In this document: piece by piece, positions 2,622 to 56,080 of the stretch
Layout of the letters: the number at the start of each line of letters is the position of its first letter
Numbering within the stretch: position 1 is the stretch's first letter
Virus record (IMG/VR): IMGVR_UViG_3300036852_000204
Coordinates: 1 to 63,092 of that record
DNA: 63,092 nucleotides
Strand: one strand, 5' to 3'
Source: a virus
Notes under the pieces: model-generated
What the model was told of the DNA's origin: nothing
The model's database searches: none
Seen by the model: the letters and a program-made list of their open reading frames with translations, nothing else
Made by a program: the position numbers and the translations under genes

Positions 2622-2938
2622 CACCCCGCCTTCCTGAACCCCTCCAGCCACTCGTTCATCTCCACATTACGTGGCTTACGTGGGCCGGACTTGCCTCTGG
2701 TCTTGCGCTTCGTTTCACGCGGAACCTTGCCGGCTCTGAGATCGCGAACGTACCTGTCGAAGGCGTCGGGATCAAAGCGCCAGTGTCCGGACTCACCCTG
2801 CGTCCTGTAGGCACCGGGAATCCCACCGTGCTCCTTGTCTGCCGCCTTCTGGATCACCCATGATCTGGATACGCCAAGGATCTTGGCGGCTTCCTCTGGG
2901 AGATAGGCGGGGCGAATTGATTCAAGGCTTTGTTTCAT
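2621..2938 (-). CDS. Excisionase-like HTH protein
   Basis: 105 residues. The N-terminus (YLPEEAAKILGVSRSWVIQKA) is a MerR/HTH_17-type helix-turn-helix, with GHWRFDPDAFDRYV as in Xis-like recombination directionality factors. The C-terminus is basic (KRKTRGKSGPRKPR). The position a few genes upstream of int in the same operon supports a role in excision, but a transcription-factor role is possible. Its start codon lies inside copy 1 of the dispersed repeat and it ends in a TGATG overlap. Confidence 0.7.
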   Translation of the reverse strand: MKQSLESIRPAYLPEEAAKILGVSRSWVIQKAADKEHGGIPGAYRTQGESGHWRFDPDAFDRYVRDLRAGKVPRETKRKTRGKSGPRKPRNVEMNEWLEGFRKAG

Positions 2939-2970
2939 CTGCCTGACCCTTGGAAATAGTCACCCCGGCG
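2921..2970 (-). repeat. Dispersed bipartite repeat, copy 1
   Basis: TTCAAGG, 25 bases, then GAAATAGTCACCCCGGCG on the plus strand. It encodes the C-terminal tail and stop of the gene at 2922-3188 and carries the start codon of the gene at 2621-2938. Confidence 0.85.
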
Positions 2971-3188
2971 TTGTCTTCCGCGCGACTGAACGACAGCGCC
3001 ATGCCGCCAATTTGGCCAGCGGCCAAACCAAGCACGAGTGCTGTGCGCAAGACGATGTCCTCGGGCATCGAAAACACCAACCAGCCGGCGCAAAACCCGC
3101 CACCCATTGCAAGGAAGACCGTCGCCATGGCCCGCAAGAATGCGGGAACCGGGACGGGTTTGTAGTTAACGACACCCTCATCTGTCAT
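2922..3188 (-). CDS. Small membrane protein, 88 aa
   Basis: Two hydrophobic helices (FLRAMATVFLAMGGGFCAGW and TALVLGLAAGQIGGMAL) joined by a short acidic loop predict an inner-membrane hairpin. The C-terminal tail AGVTISKGQADETKP is encoded by repeat copy 1 and resembles the tail of the unrelated protein at 4056-4328. Overlaps the DUF551 gene start by 4 bp. Function unknown. Confidence 0.7.
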   Translation of the reverse strand: MTDEGVVNYKPVPVPAFLRAMATVFLAMGGGFCAGWLVFSMPEDIVLRTALVLGLAAGQIGGMALSFSRAEDNAGVTISKGQADETKP

Positions 3189-3373
3189 GCTGGCGCCCCT
3201 CCGGCTGGAGGCTCAGGTAATGGCATCCAGTGTGTTGGCTCCGCATCAAACGAGACACCGTCGCAAAGCCAGCCGCGCCCGTTGTCGTAGCCAACCCGCA
3301 TTTCCGATGTGCCGGCCCAACACAGAAGAATGTCCCGACCGGCTGGAGCGGTCTTGATGGGCTGCCACGTCAT
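3185..3373 (-). CDS. DUF551 protein, 62 aa
   Basis: Starts MTWQPIKTAPAGRD and ends with THWMPLPEPP, the classic DUF551 pattern at normal length. Uncharacterised family, common as single small genes in phage early operons. ATGA overlap with the next gene. Confidence 0.75.
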   Translation of the reverse strand: MTWQPIKTAPAGRDILLCWAGTSEMRVGYDNGRGWLCDGVSFDAEPTHWMPLPEPPAGGAPA

Positions 3374-3408
3374 TCCACGTCCTCCCCGATCTTCACGACG
3401 CGCCGAGG

Positions 3409-3672
3409 TCATCCGGGTAGCCTTTTTTCCTCGCCGCACTTCAGGCACCTGCCGACGATACCGCCCTCCGGATGGCGCGCACCCTGCCAATCGTGCTCGC
3501 ACTCTTCATCCGTTGGTTGATCCTCTACGGCGATTGTTTCAAGACCGATCAAGGCGGCATCCTTGCCAACGAGCGTCGCCGCCCTCTGGCGTGCATTTTT
3601 CTCGCTGAAGAATGCCGCAACGCGCTCGATCTTTCCCGTCTCGTAGCGCTTGTAGACAACCCACATCTTCAT
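3409..3672 (-). CDS. Hypothetical protein, 87 aa
   Basis: Starts MKMWVVYKRYETGKIERVAAF with ATG overlapping the stop of the HNH gene (ATGA). An acidic segment and a possible half zinc site (ECEHDW, CLKCGEEK) lie near the C-terminus. No family recognised. Confidence 0.65.
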   Translation of the reverse strand: MKMWVVYKRYETGKIERVAAFFSEKNARQRAATLVGKDAALIGLETIAVEDQPTDEECEHDWQGARHPEGGIVGRCLKCGEEKRLPG

Positions 3673-4054: not shown

Positions 4055-4104
4055 TTCAAGGCTTCGTTGCAGTTGACGGATTGTTGGAGATAGTCACCCC
4101 GGCG
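4055..4104 (-). repeat. Dispersed bipartite repeat, copy 2
   Basis: TTCAAGG, 25 bases, then GAGATAGTCACCCCGGC on the plus strand. It forms an inverted pair with copy 3 around the gene at 4056-4328 and encodes that gene's last codons and stop. Confidence 0.9.
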
Positions 4105-4328
4105 TCTCCTCGTTTCATCAGGAGAATGTAACTGTCCATGCAGTCGCTAATGATCTCAAACAGCGTCTCGCGGTCTGGCTCACCGGTCGCGAGCGTCTCC
4201 ATGTAGCCGAGCGTGTTTGCAATCGCGGTGTAGATGATTGCCGTGTGGTGACCCGCGCACACGCTCATGATTTTCATCTGAAGTTCGTCGGCTTCTATTG
4301 CGCCGTTCGTCAGGTCCATCGGCATCAT
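4056..4328 (-). CDS. Small helical protein in a repeat-flanked cassette
   Basis: About 90 residues from MMPMDLTNGAIEADELQ. The start could also be the ATG at 4319, which has better AAGGA spacing. Mostly helical, with a weakly hydrophobic segment (HHTAIIYTAIANTLGYMETL). The tail AGVTISNNPSTATKP is repeat-encoded. The gene fills the space between inverted copies 2 and 3, as if carried as a unit. No family recognised. Confidence 0.65.
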   Translation of the reverse strand: MMPMDLTNGAIEADELQMKIMSVCAGHHTAIIYTAIANTLGYMETLATGEPDRETLFEIISDCMDSYILLMKRGDAGVTISNNPSTATKP

Positions 4329-4340
4329 CCTTGTTCTAAG

Positions 4341-4391
4341 CGCCGGGGTGACTATCTCGATTGGTCCGGCATGCAATGCGCACGCCTTGAT
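4341..4391 (+). repeat. Dispersed bipartite repeat, copy 3 (inverted to copy 2)
   Basis: GCCGGGGTGACTATCTC, 26 bases, then CCTTGAT. The outer end abuts the stop codon of the gene at 4392-4505. Confidence 0.9.
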
Positions 4392-4505
4392 TCAAAATGG
4401 TGGTTCCACATCGAACTTCTTCTGTTTCCGGTCTCTCCGGTTGAGTTCGTAAATTATGCCAAGGGCGATGATGAGAAGGGCTAGGCCGATGATGATGGGT
4501 TCCAT
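4392..4505 (-). CDS. 37-aa single-pass membrane peptide
   Basis: MEPIIIGLALLIIALGIIY is one strong transmembrane helix followed by a basic cytoplasmic tail (NRRDRKQKK). Follows the gene at 4511-4948 by 5 bp. Function unknown. Confidence 0.6.
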   Translation of the reverse strand: MEPIIIGLALLIIALGIIYELNRRDRKQKKFDVEPPF

Positions 4506-4510
4506 GGCGG

Positions 4511-4948
4511 CTATGCTGCTTCTGCTTTCAGTTGATCGATAGGCCTTGTGTGGCCGTCCGTGAGAATTTCTGCCGCCTCCAAGAGCGCATGGAATTTGTC
4601 CGATGGCAAAGCGGCCCTGATCATGTCGATCACAGCGCGGTCTTTGGTGGCGTGGGCGCGCTGCTTTTCGATGCCGGCGAGACGCCCCTGCCTGTTCTGG
4701 CATTCGTCGCGATACAGCTTAGACCACTTGAGAGCGGCCTTGGCACGTGGAAGCCAGTCTAGCGGCTTGGCTGCGTTTTCCGTGGGATACGCCACCGCTT
4801 CGTGAAGATCGATTTGCAGTTCAATGTCGATGATCTTCTCTGACAGCGCATACTTCAACTCCATGAGGTCATCGACGCCCTTGCAGAGCGCGAAGTCTGG
4901 CCGGTCAATGTCGATGGTCGTGCCAGACGGCAAAGTAAAGTTGGGCAT
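4511..4948 (-). CDS. Hypothetical helical protein, 145 aa
   Basis: Starts MPNFTLPSGTTIDIDRPDF in a TGATG overlap with the upstream gene. The rest is long helices (MELKYALSEKIIDIELQIDL) without a recognised domain. The position next to recombination genes suggests an accessory role in early DNA metabolism, which is inference only. Confidence 0.7.
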   Translation of the reverse strand: MPNFTLPSGTTIDIDRPDFALCKGVDDLMELKYALSEKIIDIELQIDLHEAVAYPTENAAKPLDWLPRAKAALKWSKLYRDECQNRQGRLAGIEKQRAHATKDRAVIDMIRAALPSDKFHALLEAAEILTDGHTRPIDQLKAEAA

Positions 4949-7109: not shown

Positions 7110-7301
7110 CTACTCCTTGACTTGTTTCGGTGGCTTCGGCAGTGGCAACCAGTGGGTAGGCTTACGTGGATGCCCCACCGGATGATGATCAACGCGGATC
7201 ATCTCGGGCTGTACGCTCTTCTGCCAACCCGTCACCGTCTCCGGGTAGAACAGGATCAGCAGCTTTCCTGTCGGCGCAGTTTCGATGGGCTGCCATTCCA
7301 T
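7110..7301 (-). CDS. DUF551 protein, 63 aa
   Basis: Starts MEWQPIETAPTGKLLILF and ends THWLPLPKPP. Normal family length. Third of four DUF551 members in this genome; packed 6 bp before the Gp157-like gene. Confidence 0.75.
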   Translation of the reverse strand: MEWQPIETAPTGKLLILFYPETVTGWQKSVQPEMIRVDHHPVGHPRKPTHWLPLPKPPKQVKE

Positions 7302-8394: not shown

Positions 8395-8444
8395 TTCACG
8401 GCTTCGTTGGTTGATGACGCGCACTTGGAGATAGTCACCCCGGC
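8395..8444 (-). repeat. Dispersed bipartite repeat, copy 4
   Basis: TTCACGG, 26 bases, then GAGATAGTCACCCCGGC. Inverted relative to copy 5; the stop codon of the enclosed gene starts directly beside it. Confidence 0.85.
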
Positions 8445-8783
8445 CTAGTACGAAGTGCTTCCGTCCGGTCCCGGTGGGCGCTCCATGTAGTGCGTGACGT
8501 ATTCTGCCCGCAGTTCAAGTTCCTCCATCTTCAGAATGTGGAACCACCTGCCGCACGGCTTTCTGTAGGCGTCGGTAATCCGCCACGCGTCTGACATTCC
8601 GAACGATGAAGGCGAGGCGCCCACGCTTAGCCAGAGGTCCACGCGGTCAAGTTGCGAACGCTCAGCGTCGAATTCCCTGATCGATTTCCAAGCCCCCATG
8701 TTCTTCCGTGATTTGGTGGCTTCGCCGGCTTCCCTGGCCCTTTCTTCCCAAGGCCTCTCCTGGTCGTCCATTACGCTGCCCAT
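8445..8783 (-). CDS. Hypothetical protein in a repeat-flanked cassette, 112 aa
   Basis: MGSVMDDQERPWEERAREAG then a basic segment and WLSVGASPSSFGMSDAWRIT. Mixed charge, no membrane helix, no family recognised. An AGGAG site lies 8 bases before ATG. The gene occupies the interior between inverted repeat copies 4 and 5. Confidence 0.6.
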   Translation of the reverse strand: MGSVMDDQERPWEERAREAGEATKSRKNMGAWKSIREFDAERSQLDRVDLWLSVGASPSSFGMSDAWRITDAYRKPCGRWFHILKMEELELRAEYVTHYMERPPGPDGSTSY

Positions 8784-8798
8784 CTTCCTCGCTCCTAT

Positions 8799-8909
8799 TC
8801 ACCATTTGGCCGGGGTGACTATCTCTGCTGGTCCGGCAAAATCTTCGCTGGCCTTGAATTCAATCTGGAACCGGGAGTACCCGGCAGCGTTTGGAGAGAA
8901 GCCATTCAC
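8799..8909 (-). CDS. Possible 36-aa peptide
   Basis: GTG-initiated frame (NGFSPNAAGYSRFQIEFKAS) that ends inside repeat copy 5 with GPAEIVTPAKW. It looks protein-like but has no clear ribosome binding site. It may be the 5' remnant of a gene cut by the repeat. Confidence 0.35.
   Translation of the reverse strand: MNGFSPNAAGYSRFQIEFKASEDFAGPAEIVTPAKW
8809..8858 (+). repeat. Dispersed bipartite repeat, copy 5 (inverted to copy 4)
   Basis: GCCGGGGTGACTATCTC, 26 bases, then CCTTGAA. Shares the GGTCCGGC block with copy 3 in the variable middle. Confidence 0.9.
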
Positions 8910-9244: not shown

Positions 9245-9342
9245 TAGCCTCTCCCGTGGAATTTCGTGTCGCTGAACCTGCACCGTTGATTGCCACTAGG
9301 GCGGTTGCGTTGGGGTTCGGTGCGGCTCAGCGACGATTGGAC

Positions 9343-9390
9343 AGTACAAAACGTACAGCGCGTCGTCAAGTACATTTTGTACAGTTGTAC
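9343..9390 (-). promoter_or_regulatory. pL: Leftward early promoter pL with GTAC operators
   Basis: On the minus strand TTGACG (9364-9369) and TGTACT (9343-9348) are 15 bp apart. Overlapping dyads: GTAC-5-GTAC at 9344-9356 and GTACA-TTT-TGTAC at 9370-9382, with a further GTAC at 9387. The block CGCGCTGTACGT between the hexamers is identical in pR. It lies between the repressor and the first leftward gene, where repressor binding would silence the early operon. Confidence 0.7.
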
Positions 9391-10097: not shown

Positions 10098-10106
10098 AGC
10101 CGCTAC

Positions 10107-10161
10107 GTACAGGCTTGTACAGTACGGAGGGCGTTGACAAACGCGCTGTACGTGTTGTACC
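10107..10161 (+). promoter_or_regulatory. pR: Rightward early promoter pR with GTAC operators
   Basis: TTGACA (10134-10139), then TGTACC 16 bp on (10156-10161). GTACA-GGCT-TGTAC at 10107-10120 lies upstream, and GTAC-5-GTAC at 10148-10160 sits between the hexamers. It is the mirror of pL with near-identical sequence. It drives the Cro-like gene and, on the other strand, the same gap must carry the repressor promoter. Confidence 0.7.
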
Positions 10162-10194
10162 GTTGCGCGAAATGAACTGCGCGGAGAGGCATCC

Positions 10195-13416: not shown

Positions 13417-13575
13417 ATGCACTTATACCCTAGAAATCCACTGAGTGTCAACAGCAACCCCTCGGTGTTCGACACGCTTGTCAAGCGCGCCGTTATCGCC
13501 GCTTACGTGTGGGGCCTGCTGTCCGTCGACACGACCCAGCATCTCGTCAACCGCTTCCAACTGTGGAGCGCGTGA
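13417..13575 (+). CDS. Hypothetical protein, 52 aa
   Basis: MHLYPRNPLSVNSNPSVFDT then RAVIAAYVWGLLSVDTTQHL. AAGGA lies about ten bases before ATG and the stop is 1 bp from the next ATG. Weakly hydrophobic middle; function unknown. Confidence 0.6.
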   Translation: MHLYPRNPLSVNSNPSVFDTLVKRAVIAAYVWGLLSVDTTQHLVNRFQLWSA

Positions 13576-13576
13576 G

Positions 13577-14524
13577 ATGAGCACGACCACAGCAACCAGC
13601 GTCACCGCACTGAATGCCGCCGCTGAGGCGAACGTCACCACAGCCATCCTGATGCTCATCAAGGAGGCGCTGATCACCGCGATTGCGGATCGGCGTCTCG
13701 AAAGGGGACACCTTCGGGTTCTGGCTGCCATCGCCACCGTCATGAAGGGCAGCGCCAAGGCTTGGCCAAGTCGGGCGTATCTTGCTGAACTTAGCGGGCT
13801 CTCTCTCGCATCCGTTTCCAACAGCCTGCACGAGCTGCGCGCGTGGGGCTACTTGATCGCCGACAAGGAGACGGTCGAGGAGGCCAGTAACCGCCGTCTG
13901 ACGGTCTACACCTTCGGCAATATCGACCACGACACCATCCGCAAGGAAATCACGTCCTTCGTCCAGAAAGCCCGCGAGGCCCGTGATCCTGCGAAGTTCA
14001 CCGCCCACGGTGATGATAGTTCACCGCCCACGGTGAAGAAGGAGTTCACCGCCCACGGTGATGGTTCACCGCCCACGGTGAAGGAATCCAAGAAAAGTTC
14101 ACCGCAGACGGTGCCCCGTATAGATAATAATAATATACCCCCAAACGCTGGCGAGGGTGACGATACAACCCCCTCGCGCAAGCGCGAGGCAACCACCAGG
14201 ACTAAATTAAGGGAAGATTGGATTCCTGCCCCAGAGACCGTCGCATGGGTCAGGGAGAACTACGTTGCGAGCGATCAGCAGATCGCGAACGAAGCCCAGA
14301 AGTTTCGCGACTACCACGTCAGCAAGGGCTCCAAGATGGCCGACTGGCGTGCGGCTTGGCGCACATGGTGGGGCAATGGGTGGCACAAGTGTCCACGCCG
14401 CATGGGCGCCCACGCTCAGATGGCGATTTCAGCGGCCGGCCAGACAGCAACAGACCAAGCCCTGCACGACGCCTTTGAGCGCGCCCGCCTCATGGACGAG
14501 GAGGACGCCAAATGCCGACGTTAG
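13577..14524 (+). CDS. Replication initiation protein (lambda O-like role)
   Basis: 315 residues. The N-terminus is a winged helix (KAWPSRAYLAELSGLSLASV, then SNSLHELRAWGYL). A low-complexity middle (FTAHGDDSSPPTVK, repeated) is encoded by the iterons. The C-terminus (WVRENYVASDQQIANEAQKF, then MADWRAAWRTWWGNG) is the DnaT/O-like segment common in phage initiators that recruit helicase. An initiator carrying its own origin in mid-gene and followed by primase-helicase matches the lambda O arrangement. Confidence 0.8.
   Translation: MSTTTATSVTALNAAAEANVTTAILMLIKEALITAIADRRLERGHLRVLAAIATVMKGSAKAWPSRAYLAELSGLSLASVSNSLHELRAWGYLIADKETVEEASNRRLTVYTFGNIDHDTIRKEITSFVQKAREARDPAKFTAHGDDSSPPTVKKEFTAHGDGSPPTVKESKKSSPQTVPRIDNNNIPPNAGEGDDTTPSRKREATTRTKLREDWIPAPETVAWVRENYVASDQQIANEAQKFRDYHVSKGSKMADWRAAWRTWWGNGWHKCPRRMGAHAQMAISAAGQTATDQALHDAFERARLMDEEDAKCRR
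13997..14137 (+). other. ori: Putative origin: five iterons plus AT-rich stretch
   Basis: TTCACCGCCCACGGTGA occurs at 13997, 14020, 14045 and 14065, with a variant (TTCACCGCAGACGGTG) at 14098. Each contains the dyad TCACCG/CGGTGA with a 4-base centre. Directly after comes an AT-rich run (14119-14137) that would be the unwinding element. The whole lies within the initiator gene, as in lambda. Confidence 0.8.
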
Positions 14525-18603: not shown

Positions 18604-19577
18604 TCGAGCAGGCCGAAGGCGACGGCTGGAAGGTCTGGAACGCCGATTGCGTGGATGTCACGCGCGGCCTGCCAGACGATAAGTTGCACTACACGGTGTT
18701 TTCCCCGCCGTTCGAGAGCCTGTACACGTTCTCGGATGATCCGCGCGATATGTCGAACTGCAACGACACCAAGACGTTCTGGGCGCACTTCAGTTTCCTG
18801 ATTGCCGAGCTCTACCGCGCGACAATGCCGGGGCGGCTGTGTTCGATCCACTGCATGCAGCTGCCAACGTCCAAGCTGCGCGATGGGTTTATTGGGCTGC
18901 GCGACTTCCGCGGCGAAATCATTCGCGCTTTCCAGGCGGCCGGATGGCTCTATCACTCCGAGGTGTGCATCCGAAAGGACCCTGTTGCAGCCATGCAGCG
19001 CTCGAAGTCGATCGGGCTCCTGCACAAGCAAATCTGCAAGGACTCCACCATCTCCCGGATGGCCGTTGCCGATTACGTCGTGACGATGCGCAAGCCAGGC
19101 GATAACCCCGAGCGCGTGGATGGCCCGTTCGACTGCTACTACGGCAGCGAGACGACACCACTTGGGCCGCTGGTGACGGAAACCGGAAAGAGCAAAAGCA
19201 CCAACCTGCCTGGGGACGAATGGTACTCAGTCGCGGTGTGGCAGCGATATGCCGAGCCGGTTTGGATGGACATCAATCAGGGCGATGTTCTCTCGCGCAA
19301 CGCTGTCCGCGCCGAGGCCGACGAACGCCATATCTCGCCCCTGCAGCTGACCGTCATTCGCCGCTGTATCGACTTATGGAGCAATCCAGGCGACGTGGTC
19401 TACAGCCCGTTCGCAGGCATCGGGTCAGAGCTCTACTGCGCCATTGAGATGGGCCGCAAGGCACTCGGCGCCGAGCTCAAGCCCAGCTACTTCCGCCAAG
19501 CCGCGGCGAACCTCCGCCTGGCCGTCGAGAACAAATCGCGGGTGACGCTGCTGGATCACATGGAGGCAGCCGAATGA
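18591..19577 (+). CDS. Beta-class DNA methyltransferase (N4-C or N6-A)
   Basis: 328 residues. The catalytic motif IV FSPPF lies near residue 39 and the SAM-binding motif (PFAGIGSELYCAIEMGRKAL) near the C-terminus: the IV-before-I order of beta-class enzymes. SPP- rather than NPP- or DPP- leans to N4-cytosine, but N6-adenine cannot be excluded. Likely protects phage DNA from host restriction or tunes GcrA-type regulation. Target not predictable from sequence alone. Confidence 0.85.
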   Translation: MVAVIEQAEGDGWKVWNADCVDVTRGLPDDKLHYTVFSPPFESLYTFSDDPRDMSNCNDTKTFWAHFSFLIAELYRATMPGRLCSIHCMQLPTSKLRDGFIGLRDFRGEIIRAFQAAGWLYHSEVCIRKDPVAAMQRSKSIGLLHKQICKDSTISRMAVADYVVTMRKPGDNPERVDGPFDCYYGSETTPLGPLVTETGKSKSTNLPGDEWYSVAVWQRYAEPVWMDINQGDVLSRNAVRAEADERHISPLQLTVIRRCIDLWSNPGDVVYSPFAGIGSELYCAIEMGRKALGAELKPSYFRQAAANLRLAVENKSRVTLLDHMEAAE

Positions 19578-19771
19578 AGCCCATCATCGCCTCATCCCCC
19601 GAAGACAAGGACAGGGAAATCATCCGTCTCCGCAGGCGCAATGAATACCTGCAGAGAAGGGTCGATGTCCTCGAAGGCCAAGAGCGTGAATTCGCCAACA
19701 GAGACCAGAGGAATGCTCAGAGAGCAGCACAGAAACACGGGAACGGTTTTGCGGGGTGCAACAATGATTAG
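19574..19771 (+). CDS. Short coiled-coil protein, 65 aa
   Basis: EIIRLRRRNEYLQRRVDVLE is a heptad coiled coil; the rest is polar. ATGA overlap with the methyltransferase gene. Function unknown. Confidence 0.6.
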   Translation: MKPIIASSPEDKDREIIRLRRRNEYLQRRVDVLEGQEREFANRDQRNAQRAAQKHGNGFAGCNND

Positions 19772-19821
19772 TTCAAGGCGAGACCATGCGATGACGGACG
19801 GTCGAGAAAGTCACCCCGGCG
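19772..19821 (-). repeat. Dispersed bipartite repeat, copy 6
   Basis: TTCAAGG, 25 bases, then GAGAAAGTCACCCCGGC, starting right after the stop of the coiled-coil gene. One base differs in the right half (AAAG for ATAG). No inverted partner is seen nearby. Confidence 0.8.
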
Positions 19822-23921: not shown

Positions 23922-23950
23922 GGGAAGTGTATACATAACATAGAAAAGGT

Positions 23951-24190
23951 TTGACGGTTTTGCCCGAAGCAGCGAATGATGGCCCCGACAGGCCGGCGCT
24001 CGAATGCAGAATGCTGATCAGCCACGAAATGATCGAGGCTGGGCTTGATGAGTTGTTTGCAAGCTCGGCAATGCTTGGTGAGTCGAACAAGGATGAACTG
24101 CGCGGCCCCTTAGCCCGCGCCCTGTGCGCAATGCTTAGCGCTTCTTCTTTCGGATTTCGATTTCATCCAGAATGTCCGCCCGAAGCTTAG
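23951..24190 (+). CDS. Possible passenger protein, 79 aa
   Basis: TTG-started frame; the convincing part is MLISHEMIEAGLDELFASSA. It overlaps the 3' end of the HEPN-like gene by 56 bp (convergent), so its last residues are probably run-on. Function unknown. Confidence 0.4.
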   Translation: MTVLPEAANDGPDRPALECRMLISHEMIEAGLDELFASSAMLGESNKDELRGPLARALCAMLSASSFGFRFHPECPPEA

Positions 24191-24662
24191 AGACTTTGTC
24201 GCGCAGTTTTCGGATGTCTTCGATCGCCTTTGTGATCTCTGCATCCTCAATGTCTTTCATGCCGTAGGTGGGCGTCTTAGACGGCATGCTTCGGAACTGA
24301 GCTGGCCGCTTGGATGTTTTTTCCATGTACCACGGGTCGTGGATTATCCTGTTGCGTGCCTCGTTGGGCGTTATGCCCTGCAGCCCGTTAATCCGCTCCA
24401 CTAGTCTTTTCTTGAGACCCATTTGCTGAGCAAGAGTTGAGATCGCTCTGTAGCGCGGAGCCGTACCCATCAGTTGGGCCGTGATGCACGCGCCCTTCTG
24501 AGGCACAAGATCCGCCAGTTCCCAGATGATTAAGTCCAATACGTGCTCAACGTGCGCCCACTCCGATGCGACTCGGCCTATCATCTGATAAAAGGGGTGG
24601 TCGTCAGGCAGCGGCTCATGAACTCGAAGCTGTGCGTTGCCGAGCAGAAGAAGAAGCGTCAT
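24135..24662 (-). CDS. HEPN-like passenger protein
   Basis: 175 residues from ATG 24662 (GGGAG upstream). SEWAHVEHVLDLIIWELADL is an N-terminal helix like those of HEPN folds, and NEARNRIIHDPWYMEK carries the R-x4-H catalytic motif of HEPN ribonucleases. The C-terminus is a coiled coil (DIRKLRDKVSKLRADIL). HEPN proteins often act as toxins or defence RNases. As transposon cargo it could give addiction or anti-phage function. Activity is inferred from one motif. Confidence 0.6.
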   Translation of the reverse strand: MTLLLLLGNAQLRVHEPLPDDHPFYQMIGRVASEWAHVEHVLDLIIWELADLVPQKGACITAQLMGTAPRYRAISTLAQQMGLKKRLVERINGLQGITPNEARNRIIHDPWYMEKTSKRPAQFRSMPSKTPTYGMKDIEDAEITKAIEDIRKLRDKVSKLRADILDEIEIRKKKR

Positions 24663-24834
24663 GCGAAATTCTCCCAAGCAATCAAAAGAACCGGATCAGC
24701 ACAGCGAGCAAGAGACTGCGCGCCGTCGCGACGAATGGTTGCGCCGAACCCTCAACAGTCCGCCGAAGCCGCACAAGGATGTCGTTGCGGAGCGGAAGAC
24801 GAAGCGCGCAGGGCGCGAGACCAAGAAACGATGA
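24661..24834 (+). CDS. Possible passenger protein, 57 aa, basic
   Basis: MRNSPKQSKEPDQHSEQETA, then a Lys/Arg-rich tail. Its ATG overlaps the ATG of the divergent HEPN-like gene by 2 bp, an odd arrangement, so one of the two starts may be wrong. Confidence 0.45.
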   Translation: MRNSPKQSKEPDQHSEQETARRRDEWLRRTLNSPPKPHKDVVAERKTKRAGRETKKR

Positions 24835-24891
24835 AGTGCGAGTGCTCAGATATCGCTGCGTCGTGCAATGTCTTGCGCGCGCAACGCACGT

Positions 24892-25296
24892 CTAGTGGCT
24901 ACTTGGTCCAACTTGGAGCTTCGGAATTTCGTCCCGTACCGCTTGTTGAAGTGAAGCTGCCCGTCCCGCATCAAGCGCGAACCATTTCAGAACCTTGCCA
25001 GAGTGCAGACCGAGGAAAACGCACGGAGCCCCGTTCACATGACCGTTCATCACGCGGTGTTCGTCGACGATAGCAGCGCGCAACGATCCACGCTCACCAG
25101 GAGCAATGCCGGCGACGGGGTCGTGCAGTGACGAAAGGTGCTCCAGATCATTCAAGACGGTGATGAGATGGTCTAAGTGTTCGACTTGCAACGATAGATC
25201 AAGTGATCCCTGGCTCGTGCGAAACCTGAATTCGAACGCGGTCCTGTCCGCAGAAATTGTCGCGCTCTCAATGCCGGTCAACTGGAATGCTGGCAT
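24892..25296 (-). CDS. Passenger hypothetical protein, 134 aa
   Basis: GGAGAA precedes ATG. Two beta-rich halves (ATISADRTAFEFRFRTSQGS; GAPCVFLGLHSGKVLKWFAL) joined by helices. No family recognised. Lies between transposase and HEPN-like gene on the same strand, so the three may be co-transcribed. Confidence 0.6.
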   Translation of the reverse strand: MPAFQLTGIESATISADRTAFEFRFRTSQGSLDLSLQVEHLDHLITVLNDLEHLSSLHDPVAGIAPGERGSLRAAIVDEHRVMNGHVNGAPCVFLGLHSGKVLKWFALDAGRAASLQQAVRDEIPKLQVGPSSH

Positions 25297-25403
25297 GTTT
25301 GTTCTCCGCGTGGTTGATTCGTCGCAGAACCAGCTTACACGGAGAGGGGCCGCTAGGTGACTAGCGGCCCGCCTTCTCTCGCTTCCACTTCCGGAAAGCT
25401 TCC

Positions 25404-26360
25404 CTAAGCTCCCGTGTCATCTTCACGGGGCTTGGCTGCTTTGTCAGGCTGTCGATAAGTAAGCCTCTTGCCGACGGCACCCTTCATCAACAGTGACGCG
25501 CGTTCCGTATCCTCGACGCCCAGCGCAGATCGGGTGTTCCAGCGGAAGGCAAACTCGTCAATGTAGCGCTGCAAATGCTGCTCGCTGATTGAGTGAAAGC
25601 TTCCCATGACGCCGCGCTTCAGGATGGCAAAGAACGCTTCGGCGGATTGAATGTGCGTCTTGCCATCCTTGGACACGTATTCGTCTTTGGAGTGGTTCAC
25701 GACACCATGCGCGGCGAACTCTTTGCTCATATGGTAGTAAGCCAGCGCGTCGTCGGTGTTCATGGTTGTGCCCTTGGCGACATGCTTGGCGATCGCCTTG
25801 CGCAGCGTCTTGGCCGATACATCAGCAACGTGCGTTGCGCGCACCTGACCGCCACGCTCTACTAGCGCATGGACGGCGTGCTTCTTGGGCTCAGGCTTGC
25901 CCTTGTGGACGTTTTTCTTCTTGCCGCCGACAAACGTCTCGTCGCTCTCGACAGTCTTGCCCTCGCCACCAATCGGGCCAGCCTTCAGATCAGGGCCAGC
26001 GGCCTCGCGAATGCGCATGGTGAGAAACCAAGCGGTCTTGTATGTGACGCCAAGCATGCGCTGGAGCTGCTTAGAGGACATACCCTTCTTGCTGGCGGCC
26101 ATCAGGTGGTAGGCCAGTACCCACTTGGTCAGCGGGATTTTGGACCGCTCCATCACGCTACCAACCGTCACGGTGAAGGCTTGCAGGCATGAATTGCACT
26201 GGAATAGACCGGGGCGGTGGCTTTTGCCTTCGAGGCGGTGAATGTTTTCGGTTTCGCCGCAATGAGGACAGAACGGGCCGTCGGGCCAGCGCTGAGCTTC
26301 TAAATGCTCGCGAGCTTTGTCTTCATCGTGAAAAATCGGGTTAGTGAGATTGACGGACAC
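25404..26360 (-). CDS. tnp: IS1595-family transposase
   Basis: 318 residues. An N-terminal zinc ribbon (FCPHCGETENIH ... FQCNSC), TVGSVMERSKIPLTKWVLAY, and a DDE-type core with ESDETFVGGKKK, NTDDALAYY and FHSISEQHLQRYIDEFAFRW, as in ISXO2-like transposases. It cuts at the terminal inverted repeats and inserts with 8-bp duplications. The frame appears intact. Confidence 0.93.
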   Translation of the reverse strand: MSVNLTNPIFHDEDKAREHLEAQRWPDGPFCPHCGETENIHRLEGKSHRPGLFQCNSCLQAFTVTVGSVMERSKIPLTKWVLAYHLMAASKKGMSSKQLQRMLGVTYKTAWFLTMRIREAAGPDLKAGPIGGEGKTVESDETFVGGKKKNVHKGKPEPKKHAVHALVERGGQVRATHVADVSAKTLRKAIAKHVAKGTTMNTDDALAYYHMSKEFAAHGVVNHSKDEYVSKDGKTHIQSAEAFFAILKRGVMGSFHSISEQHLQRYIDEFAFRWNTRSALGVEDTERASLLMKGAVGKRLTYRQPDKAAKPREDDTGA

Positions 26361-26403
26361 AATGCACCTCGCTTTCTGAGGTGAATATGGCCTCGCAATC
26401 TCA

Positions 26404-26425
26404 CTATGTCAAGTATACACTTCCC
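26404..26425 (-). repeat. Right terminal inverted repeat of the transposon
   Basis: Complement begins GGGAAGTGTATAC, matching the left end at 23922-23943 in 20 of 22 bp. Confidence 0.92.
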
Positions 26426-28811: not shown

Positions 28812-29471
28812 ATGGCCGATGATCTGACCATCACGCAAGGCACCGGCACGACCATTGCCGCCGACGAGATTTCCAGCGTCAAATACCAGCGGATCAAGCT
28901 ATCGCTGGGTGCCGATGGAACGGCGGTCGATGCCATAGCTGGTGCGGGCGTCGTTGGAACTGGTGTTCAGCGCACGACGCTGGCATCTGATGATCCCGCC
29001 GTTACCGCCCTTCAGGTCGTCGATGATTGGGATGAGTCAGATCGCGCCAAGGTCAATCTGATTGTTGGCCAGGCGGGCATTGCGGCAGGGGCCGGGGCGG
29101 TCGGCGCTACCGTTCCGCGCGTTACCCACGCTTCCGATGATCCCGCGGTCACCGCTCTGCAGTTGGTTGATGACTTCGGCGTCGGTGAATACGAAACCGT
29201 GGCCGCCTCACAGACCGCTCAGGTGATCGGGGCCACAGGCGCGGCCGGGGATTTCATATCTGGTCTACTGGTCACGCCAGCCAATACCTCGCCCGGCAAC
29301 GTCATCATTCTCGACAATGCCACCTCGATCACCGTGTTTGCCGGCGGCGCATCCAGTGTCTCCAACCTGGTGCCGTTCTTCATTCCGCTCGGCATGCGCA
29401 GCGTGTCGGGGGCGTGGAAGGTGACGACCGGCGCCGATGTGTCCGTTATCGCTATGGGGAACTTCACATGA
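28812..29471 (+). CDS. Structural-type protein, paralogue A, 219 aa
   Basis: MADDLTITQGTGTTIAADEI, then repeated blocks of the type TLASDDPAVTALQVVDDWDE. The opening 110 residues match the protein at 29625 closely. The C-terminal half (ANTSPGNVIILDNATSITVF) is separate. Likely capsid decoration or fibre-like protein. Confidence 0.65.
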   Translation: MADDLTITQGTGTTIAADEISSVKYQRIKLSLGADGTAVDAIAGAGVVGTGVQRTTLASDDPAVTALQVVDDWDESDRAKVNLIVGQAGIAAGAGAVGATVPRVTHASDDPAVTALQLVDDFGVGEYETVAASQTAQVIGATGAAGDFISGLLVTPANTSPGNVIILDNATSITVFAGGASSVSNLVPFFIPLGMRSVSGAWKVTTGADVSVIAMGNFT

Positions 29472-29624: not shown

Positions 29625-30530
29625 ATGGCAGACAACGCAAATGCAACGGCTGGAGATGGTTCGGTCGTCGTGGCTGCCGATGACATCGGCGGCGTCCACT
29701 ACCAGCGGGTCAAGCTTGCGCTGGGGGCCGATGGTGCTGGCGTCGATGCGGTGGCCGGGGCCGGGGCCGTAAGCACCGCCGTGCAGCGCGTCACGCTGGC
29801 CAGCGACGATCCCGTCACGACATCCGTGCAGATCATGGATGATTGGGACGAAACCGATCGCGCCAAGGTCAACGTCATTGTCGGCCAGGCGGGCATTGCT
29901 GCCGGCACGGGCGTAGATGGGGTCACGGTGCCGCGCGTGTCGCTTGCCACCGACGTGCCATTGCCAGCCGGCACCAACGGCATCGGCAAGCTGACCGCCA
30001 ACTCGGGCGTAGACATTGGCGACGTTGATGTCACCTCGATTTCGGCTGGTGAAAACCACTTGGGCGAGGTCGGCGGCAAGACGGCGGTGGTTGCTGTCAC
30101 GCTCAGCACAGACACATCAGCTTATGCCTCGGGCGATCTGATCGCCGACACGCAGCAGATTGACACCTTCTTCCGCAAGGCGGATGGCACTGGCGTCATC
30201 AATTCCATCAACATCATCGATGAGGATGCCCAGGGCGTTGCCCTTTACATCATCTTCATGAGCACCAGCACCAGCCTTGGCACTGAGAACAGCGCACCGA
30301 ACATCTCCGACGCCAACCTGACGGCGGGCTTCCAAGGCATCGTGTCGGTCGGGACTTCAGATTACGTTACGATCAGCGGCGCCAAGGTTGCCACCATCCG
30401 CAACATCGGCCTTCCCGTCAAAGCTGTCTCCGGCACGGATGACATCTACATCGCCGTGCTGAACTCTACGGGCACGCCGACCTTCACGGCATCCGGCTTA
30501 GAGATGCGTATCGGCGTGTTGTTGGATTAG
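29625..30530 (+). CDS. Structural-type protein, paralogue B, 301 aa
   Basis: Shares the block GADGAGVDAVAGAGAV / RVTLASDD / MDDWDETDRAKVNVIVGQAG with the protein at 28812, so the two arose by duplication. The C-terminal part (LSTDTSAYASGDLIADTQQI) resembles a common phage structural domain. Likely on the virion surface. Confidence 0.65.
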   Translation: MADNANATAGDGSVVVAADDIGGVHYQRVKLALGADGAGVDAVAGAGAVSTAVQRVTLASDDPVTTSVQIMDDWDETDRAKVNVIVGQAGIAAGTGVDGVTVPRVSLATDVPLPAGTNGIGKLTANSGVDIGDVDVTSISAGENHLGEVGGKTAVVAVTLSTDTSAYASGDLIADTQQIDTFFRKADGTGVINSINIIDEDAQGVALYIIFMSTSTSLGTENSAPNISDANLTAGFQGIVSVGTSDYVTISGAKVATIRNIGLPVKAVSGTDDIYIAVLNSTGTPTFTASGLEMRIGVLLD

Positions 30531-40480: not shown

Positions 40481-40897
40481 ATGCCCGATCAATCACTGAT
40501 CGAGCTGCTGAGCGGGTACGACGTAACCGACGGAACCGGCGGTCTGGTTGCTCGACTGAAGGTTCACCCAGACAACAGTGTCGGGAACGTCATGGTGATG
40601 GACCATTCGCTTCGTCGCCAAGGCATCGCCACGGCGCTTTACGACTATGCCGCCAAGGATAGAGGCGTTCCACGCCTAGAGGCCGGCAGCTATCAGACAG
40701 CGGAGGGAGTGGCACTTCGCACTGCTTACGACCGCCGGGGTGACTATCTCGGCGGCGAGGCAAAAGACGCGGCTTCCTTGAATAAAGCCGCCGCCGTAAA
40801 GGAACTCTACGCCAAGCAAGGAATGCCAGTTTCTGGGGAAGACAGAGAGAATAAGCGTTCCCGCCTCAATGGCTTTGGCGGCCCAGTCCCCAACTAA
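40481..40897 (+). CDS. GNAT-like acetyltransferase domain protein
   Basis: 138 residues. NVMVMDHSLRRQGIATALYD is the acetyl-CoA binding motif A (R/Q-x-x-G-x-A) of GNAT enzymes; the flanks are short for a full GNAT fold. Its C-terminal half carries repeat copy 7. Could be a virion-associated or moron enzyme. Confidence 0.6.
   Translation: MPDQSLIELLSGYDVTDGTGGLVARLKVHPDNSVGNVMVMDHSLRRQGIATALYDYAAKDRGVPRLEAGSYQTAEGVALRTAYDRRGDYLGGEAKDAASLNKAAAVKELYAKQGMPVSGEDRENKRSRLNGFGGPVPN
40733..40782 (+). repeat. Dispersed bipartite repeat, copy 7
   Basis: GCCGGGGTGACTATCTC, 25 bases, then CCTTGAA, inside the GNAT-like gene, where it encodes RRGDYLGG. No inverted partner seen nearby. Confidence 0.8.
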
Positions 40898-55795: not shown

Positions 55796-56080
55796 TCAGT
55801 TGCTCTTGAGCGCCATCCACTGGCGCGGCTTAAACGGTCCATAGTTTCCGTGTAGAAAGTATTCGCCGTGGCCGCGCCCTGGCATGAGAACGCGCCAGCC
55901 AGTTTCGCGGGCGACCTCCACCGTCTCCCATGTGGAGAGTTGCCACCACTTCCTTTCGACTTGCCGCGTCTCTTTGTGCGGCACATCGCTTACCCATGCC
56001 ATCATGACCGGCCAGCCGTCGAAGTCGCCGAGAACAATCTCGCCGGTCGTTGGTGCTGTCTCCATCGACTGCCAGCACAT
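55796..56080 (-). CDS. DUF551-like protein, 94 aa
   Basis: Starts MCWQSMETAPTTGEIVLGDF and ends RQWMALKSN, the DUF551 frame with a larger insert. Fourth family member here and the only one in this cluster. Confidence 0.65.
   Translation of the reverse strand: MCWQSMETAPTTGEIVLGDFDGWPVMMAWVSDVPHKETRQVERKWWQLSTWETVEVARETGWRVLMPGRGHGEYFLHGNYGPFKPRQWMALKSN

Follow-up and report, generated by a model that had tools for sequence, protein, structure and literature searches.

A temperate phage genome of 63,092 bases, an IMG/VR record analysed here over its full length (the window), carries exactly seven copies of a short, tripartite DNA element, and two facing pairs of these copies each enclose a single small gene. 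Our tentative preference is for a gene-junction element acting at the DNA level, each copy marking a place where small accessory genes became attached to the phage genome; phages would seem to share this junction and to swap small genes there. Unrelated genes are linked to the element in four phages, that of the window included.

The element and its two cassettes

In its short form the element is TCAAGGC-N24/25-GAGATAGTCACCCCGGC, 48-49 bp long. Alignment of all copies gives a fuller consensus which, read towards the A block, consists of the B block [A/T]TGRWTCAAGGC, 11-12 variable bases, T(G/C)(A/C)C, 8-9 variable bases, and the A block GAGAWAGTCACCCCGGC, comprising 17 bases and lacking dyad symmetry. 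The A blocks are located at 2953, 4087, 4342, 8428, 8809, 19804 and 40734.

The repeat is not due to chance. Across the A block and the core of the B block the seven copies have 0-1 mismatches, with six at the next-best site of the window, and a weight matrix scores them at 52-56 bits and the rest of the window at no more than 14 bits throughout. The 13-mer TAGTCACCCCGGC, allowing up to two mismatches, is found at 9 sites against 1.5 expected, a count matched by none of 100 shuffles, and the 12-mer GGGGTGACTATC occurs six times in the window and never in 200 Markov genomes. The copies, and the genes that two pairs of them enclose, are as follows.

Copy 1, 2922..2969, minus strand: 3'-end type; codes for the C-terminal tail AGVTISKGQADETKP and stop of ORF 2922-3188; also overlaps the HTH/excisionase-like gene 2621-2938 at its start; without a partner of its own.
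Copy 2, 4056..4103, minus strand: 3'-end type; codes for the C-terminal tail AGVTISNNPSTATKP and stop of the cassette-1 ORF; the HNH gene starts 3 bases further on.
Cassette-1 ORF, 4056..4376, minus strand: up to 106 amino acids; unrelated to the cassette-2 gene.
Copy 3, 4342..4390, plus strand: 5'-end type, upstream of the cassette-1 ORF; abuts the stop codon of ORF 4392-4703.
Copy 4, 8396..8444, minus strand: 3'-end type; A block 8428-8444, B block 8396-8402; separates the cassette-2 stop codon from the ATG (8392) of a 40-codon ORF.
Cassette-2 gene, 8445..8783, minus strand: 112 amino acids; no family and no detectable relatives.
Copy 5, 8809..8857, plus strand: 5'-end type, reading towards the minus-strand gene; A block 8809-8825, B block 8851-8857.
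Copy 6, 19773..19820, minus strand: 5'-end type, GAGAAAG variant; flanked by the stop of ORF 19574-19771 and by a plus-strand small membrane ORF; no nearby partner.
Copy 7, 40734..40781, plus strand: within the 3' part of the GNAT-like ORF 40481-40897; no nearby partner.

Facing each other across ORF 4056-4376 are copies 2 and 3, forming a unit of 335 bp (cassette 1, 4056-4390), and across ORF 8445-8783 are copies 4 and 5, forming a unit of 462 bp (cassette 2, 8396-8857) with exact inverted arms of 18 nt. The preliminary description had placed the latter pair correctly to within one base and had noted that the stop codon touches the repeat; this stop ends at 8445, beside the A block of copy 4. 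It had also called the two enclosed genes unrelated, and BLASTP indeed returns no alignment between their proteins at E<=100. The cassette-2 protein has no relatives in IMG/VR, phage records, Pfam or PHROGs, and weak hits only in 298 genomes; AlphaFold models of the two cassette proteins have pLDDT values of 38 and 40. No target-site duplication is present at either cassette (flanks GTCATGGT / ATTCAATC and GACATGAT / TTCAAAAT).

For five of the seven copies a predicted gene boundary lies no more than 5 bases away, against 0.13-0.22 per random site, and five of seven are in the early operon. The element is inverted at or within the 3' ends of genes in four cases, of which copies 1 and 2 form the end of their ORFs, coding for the final 15 residues (AGVTIS........P) and the stop; copies 3 and 6 begin where the preceding gene's stop codon lies. 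Relative to transcription, three copies are sense and four antisense.

Only five of the seven copies were listed originally, all of them real; copies 6 and 7 had been missed. This bears on the proposal that left and right ends form two sub-types, as in an element with distinct ends and differing genes. The shared middle bases on which it was built are there (GGTCCGGC in copies 3 and 5, CTTCGTTG in copies 2 and 4), inverted pairs do abut two unrelated single genes, and the proposed division is the best of 10 possible splits with five copies; with all seven it ranks fourth of 35, so that alignment by end type over the larger set leaves the association suggestive only. Copies 1, 2 and 4, at 3' ends, agree at 13-15 of 24 spacer positions, and copies 3 and 5, at 5' ends, share other bases, agreeing at 13 of 24, where the 95th percentile for random pairs is 10. 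For the left region, this similarity argues for common descent of the two end types, and for no more than that. Two obligate ends are a different matter: copies 1, 6 and 7 have no partner nearby, solo copies occur in other phages (below), no target-site duplication is visible, and the window encodes no transposase matching the repeat.

In the left 9 kb, the minus strand encodes a tyrosine integrase, the HTH/excisionase-like gene, the HNH gene, NinB and RecT, and the phage also encodes an S24-type repressor. Its RecT and terminase have relatives in IMG/VR; at the DNA level the early region has no match in the phage and plasmid records searched. No close relative that might reveal an empty cassette site was found: contig L043 has RecT, NinB, HNH, HTH and integrase genes in the same order, without elements, and is syntenic but too diverged to reveal such a site.

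Several other features of the genome were recorded. Adjoining the integrase gene is the 3' part of a tRNA-like sequence (480-552, anticodon GTG, ACCA end), a probable attachment site, where 51 bases match sites in two alphaproteobacterial genomes at 88% identity. Repeated TGTAC/GTACA motifs, unrelated to the element, flank the S24-type repressor region at 9341-9390 and 10106-10163 and are likely to be operators of that repressor. Four head-to-tail, iteron-like copies of TTCACCGCCCACGGTGA lie at 13991-14083 inside the HTH gene 13445-14524, possibly forming a replication origin within its own initiator gene. An IS1595-type insertion element at 23922-26425, with 22-bp terminal inverted repeats GGGAAGTGTATACATAACATAG, encodes an ISXO2-like transposase with a zinc ribbon (25404-26360, minus strand) and carries extra ORFs. 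The structural region contains a duplicated gene segment (28857-29137 and 29673-29953, 71% identical). Small DUF551-like genes with the motif W-Q-P-I-E-T-A-P are found on the minus strand at 1743-2174, 3185-3502, 7110-7301 and 55796-56080, the Pfam comparison among these covering 3185-3502.

The element in other genomes

Outside the window, pattern scans followed by re-scoring with the matrix yielded true elements in three phage contigs, L027, L015 and L232, at 39-51 bits (next best, 28). Each carries one full element, which in every case has the same orientation and sits at the 5' end of a small gene, and the linked proteins are mutually unlike: a 74-residue protein in L027 (MDQGNATGSRSAEIVTPA..), a DUF551 protein in L015, preceded by ..LDHRAVSGSPAPEIVTPA.., and a 76-residue protein in L232 (MDHRNATGSPTAEKVTPA..). 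A DUF551-like gene thus occurs beside the element in L015, as such genes also occur in the window. In L027 and L232 translation starts within the B block, upstream of the A block. Because the spacers of the three outside elements resemble one another, we read them as a DNA piece of shared descent that has become joined to different genes. The three contigs share hardly any proteins with the window, and no protein that could be the recogniser is common to all four phages, although the contigs may be fragments.

L027 and L232 have no second copy, and none lies close to copy 6 or copy 7. L015 has, besides its perfect 5' copy, a decayed and inverted site, GCCGGGGTGACC, at the 3' end of the gene that follows (..SEAGVTAQSDVTGSSEVNQ and stop). 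This site closes a bracket around two genes different from those of the window and has a chance expectation of 0.002, given how often such sites occur in 4.7 Mb of fetched sequence; this bracket speaks for the distinct-ends proposal. A homologue of the L027 gene in contig L199 lacks the element and starts MTDPIAKLAAD, with its start codon just past the point where the element ends, a single comparison that would also fit a replaced N-terminus. Among 298 genomes each, homologues of the L027 and L232 genes gave no further usable comparison of this type. Other phage contigs contain exact inverted repeats of 31-37 bp, different in sequence, enclosing 0.2-0.7 kb (L074:3359-3659, L056:1232-1663 and L131:13290-14080), which could be other bracketed genes.

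A conserved peptide motif was considered and rejected. Most codon differences between the outside copies alter the amino acid (5 against 2 silent, 9 against 0 and 7 against 4), and the third positions of GTC ACC CCG stay fixed while the amino acids change, the fixed positions in L015, L027 and L232 being partly an artefact of how these copies were searched for. In the window copies the A block is the same in every frame, on both strands and in non-coding DNA. Judged by these comparisons, the conserved entity is DNA, not peptide. A search for the EIVTP-coding pattern with synonymous codons allowed found no true element beyond L027, and Rfam gave no match to a known structured RNA.

In bacteria, the element is absent from 398 genomes belonging to a single order, which were selected around a Rhizobiales genome; in the two pattern matches from this set the A block is missing its second half. 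A scan of the GTDB genome collection found no element with a B block. Bare 17-mer matches in bacterial genomes were rejected, as none has a B block; many share an RRGDYLG-type reading, which we take to be pyrG coding sequence. Most 15-mer matches in viral contigs look like chance.

Weighing the explanations

Under the gene-junction explanation, an element pointing at a gene, with its A block nearest, would sit at the 5' end, where the B block can supply the start codon. At the opposite end of the gene the element would be inverted, its B block giving a TGA stop and leading into the ATG of the next gene, and two facing copies would yield a single-gene cassette. A DNA-binding protein or the phage's RecT-type annealing recombinase may use the element as an exchange point, by which small genes would be gained or swapped. 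That the element marks gene-exchange joints is suggested by its linkage to small genes that are unrelated, whether its copies are solitary or form inverted pairs. Recognition by a protein is suggested by the fixed blocks and by a spacer of variable sequence whose length differs by one base. RecT and other SSAP-type recombinases are reported to promote exchange at short or diverged homologies (PMC3945230, PMC5499656); but separate blocks would not be maintained by simple homology, and a specific protein is therefore probably involved and recognises the element. No direct recombination event was seen, nor a close-relative pair with and without a cassette, and copy 7, lying inside a gene, counts against the junction. 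A more elaborate version, a phage gene-cassette system in which a recombinase would recognise the 48-bp element and take up, invert or exchange the single small genes that lie between facing copies, is improbable; it would be somewhat alike in role to the integrons of bacteria, with the difference that the phage sites are inverted and bear starts and stops.

The main rival, itself unlikely, is that the copies are stoperator-like sites, at which a phage regulator binds at gene boundaries and blocks prophage transcription, the brackets being a by-product. A short, strongly conserved multi-block site tolerating one base of spacing, placed at boundaries and concentrated in the early operon, is what such an operator would look like; it could function in either orientation, and the three other phages have solo copies near early-gene starts. 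Yet Cluster A stoperators point one way with respect to transcription (PMC3029335), whereas the orientations here are mixed; the repressor region has a different repeated motif (TGTAC); each other phage has one copy only; and attachment to unrelated genes and the spacer similarity of L027, L232 and L015 are left unexplained. If the repeats were instead the ends of a very small, non-autonomous transposon of the MPME or MITE kind that is mobilised in trans, which we consider rather improbable, units of 462 and 335 bp with inverted ends of 48-49 bp, near the size of an MPME (PMC4351075), the end sub-types and the L015 bracket with one decayed end would all be accounted for. The two cargo genes are unrelated, however, where MPMEs share one ORF, and a plain mini-transposon is disfavoured because of the solo copies, the lack of target-site duplications at both cassettes and the lack of a matching transposase. 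The sole recognised transposase is of the IS1595 type; its element has ends GGGAAGTGTATAC.. that, like its terminal repeats, differ from those described here, and both identity with that repeat and mobilisation by that transposase were rejected.

It is very doubtful that the element is an expression signal of early genes, whether promoter, leader or conserved N-terminal peptide, even though all six gene-sense copies (3, 5, 6, L027, L015 and L232) are at 5' gene ends and two have a start codon within the B block. Those start codons place transcription initiation upstream of the element, for which reason a promoter of the L027 and L232 genes was rejected; a sigma-70 promoter-like site (-35/-10 hexamers) is absent at copies 1-5, between 2500 and 9400; four copies are antisense at 3' ends; and third codon positions are fixed while amino acids vary. 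Least credible is an RNA element in which facing copies pair in the mRNA and close the gene off in a long stem. The 18 perfect pairs of copies 4 and 5 do appear in the predicted minimum-energy fold, but the fold energy of the cassette is unexceptional (z = -1.55, with 7 of 100 shuffles as stable), and copies 6 and 7 and the solo copies of L027 and L232 have no partner with which to pair.

Relation to known phage repeats

The element belongs to a loose kind that may be called the dispersed phage gene-boundary repeat, and four known systems each resemble it in one aspect. Nearest in distribution are the 17-bp repeats of Cluster O mycobacteriophages, whose function is unknown (PMC4351075): they too are short, phage-specific, dispersed sites located between ORFs, at 5' ends and inside ORFs, and are absent from the host genomes checked, as the element with its B block is from the bacterial genomes scanned here. 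Genes are inserted or deleted at Cluster O repeats, as in a segment of ~550 bp between two of them, but those repeats are palindromic and number 34 per genome (PMC4351075), in contrast to an asymmetric, tripartite element of 48-49 bp with seven copies and facing pairs around single genes. Nearest in relation to starts are the start-associated sequences (SAS/ESAS) of Cluster K mycobacteriophages (PMC3203893), a conserved block tied to the translation starts of some small genes and accompanied, in the ESAS, by inverted repeats of 17 bp. Almost all SAS precede starts in a single orientation, unlike the element with its four inverted copies at or in 3' ends, and the ESAS inverted repeats stand together upstream of one gene (PMC3203893), whereas the inverted copies described here are on opposite sides of a gene.

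The mycobacteriophage mobile elements MPME1 and MPME2 (PMC4351075, PMC3029335) are nearest in size and shape, having inverted repeats around one small ORF in a unit of ~0.4 kb (about 440 bp, with an ORF of 123 residues; PMC4351075). They share that ORF and occur as insertions whose pre-integration sites are seen (PMC4351075, PMC3029335), whereas the cargo genes of the cassettes differ and an empty site was not found. Cluster A stoperators (PMC3029335) are nearest as asymmetric, dispersed protein sites, mainly intergenic, but number 24-34 in one orientation, against seven copies in both orientations with no known binder. Because a defining feature of each fails, the element is filed under none of the four systems.

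Phage genomes are mosaics with joints between genes, and the clean gain of small genes is largely an open question. If the gene-junction reading is true, one route of gene exchange would become directly testable through a short element that bears starts and stops, lies at such joints in four phages and, in pairs, brackets unrelated genes. If the element is a dispersed operator instead, it would be a new asymmetric, non-mycobacterial case of genome-wide regulatory sites.
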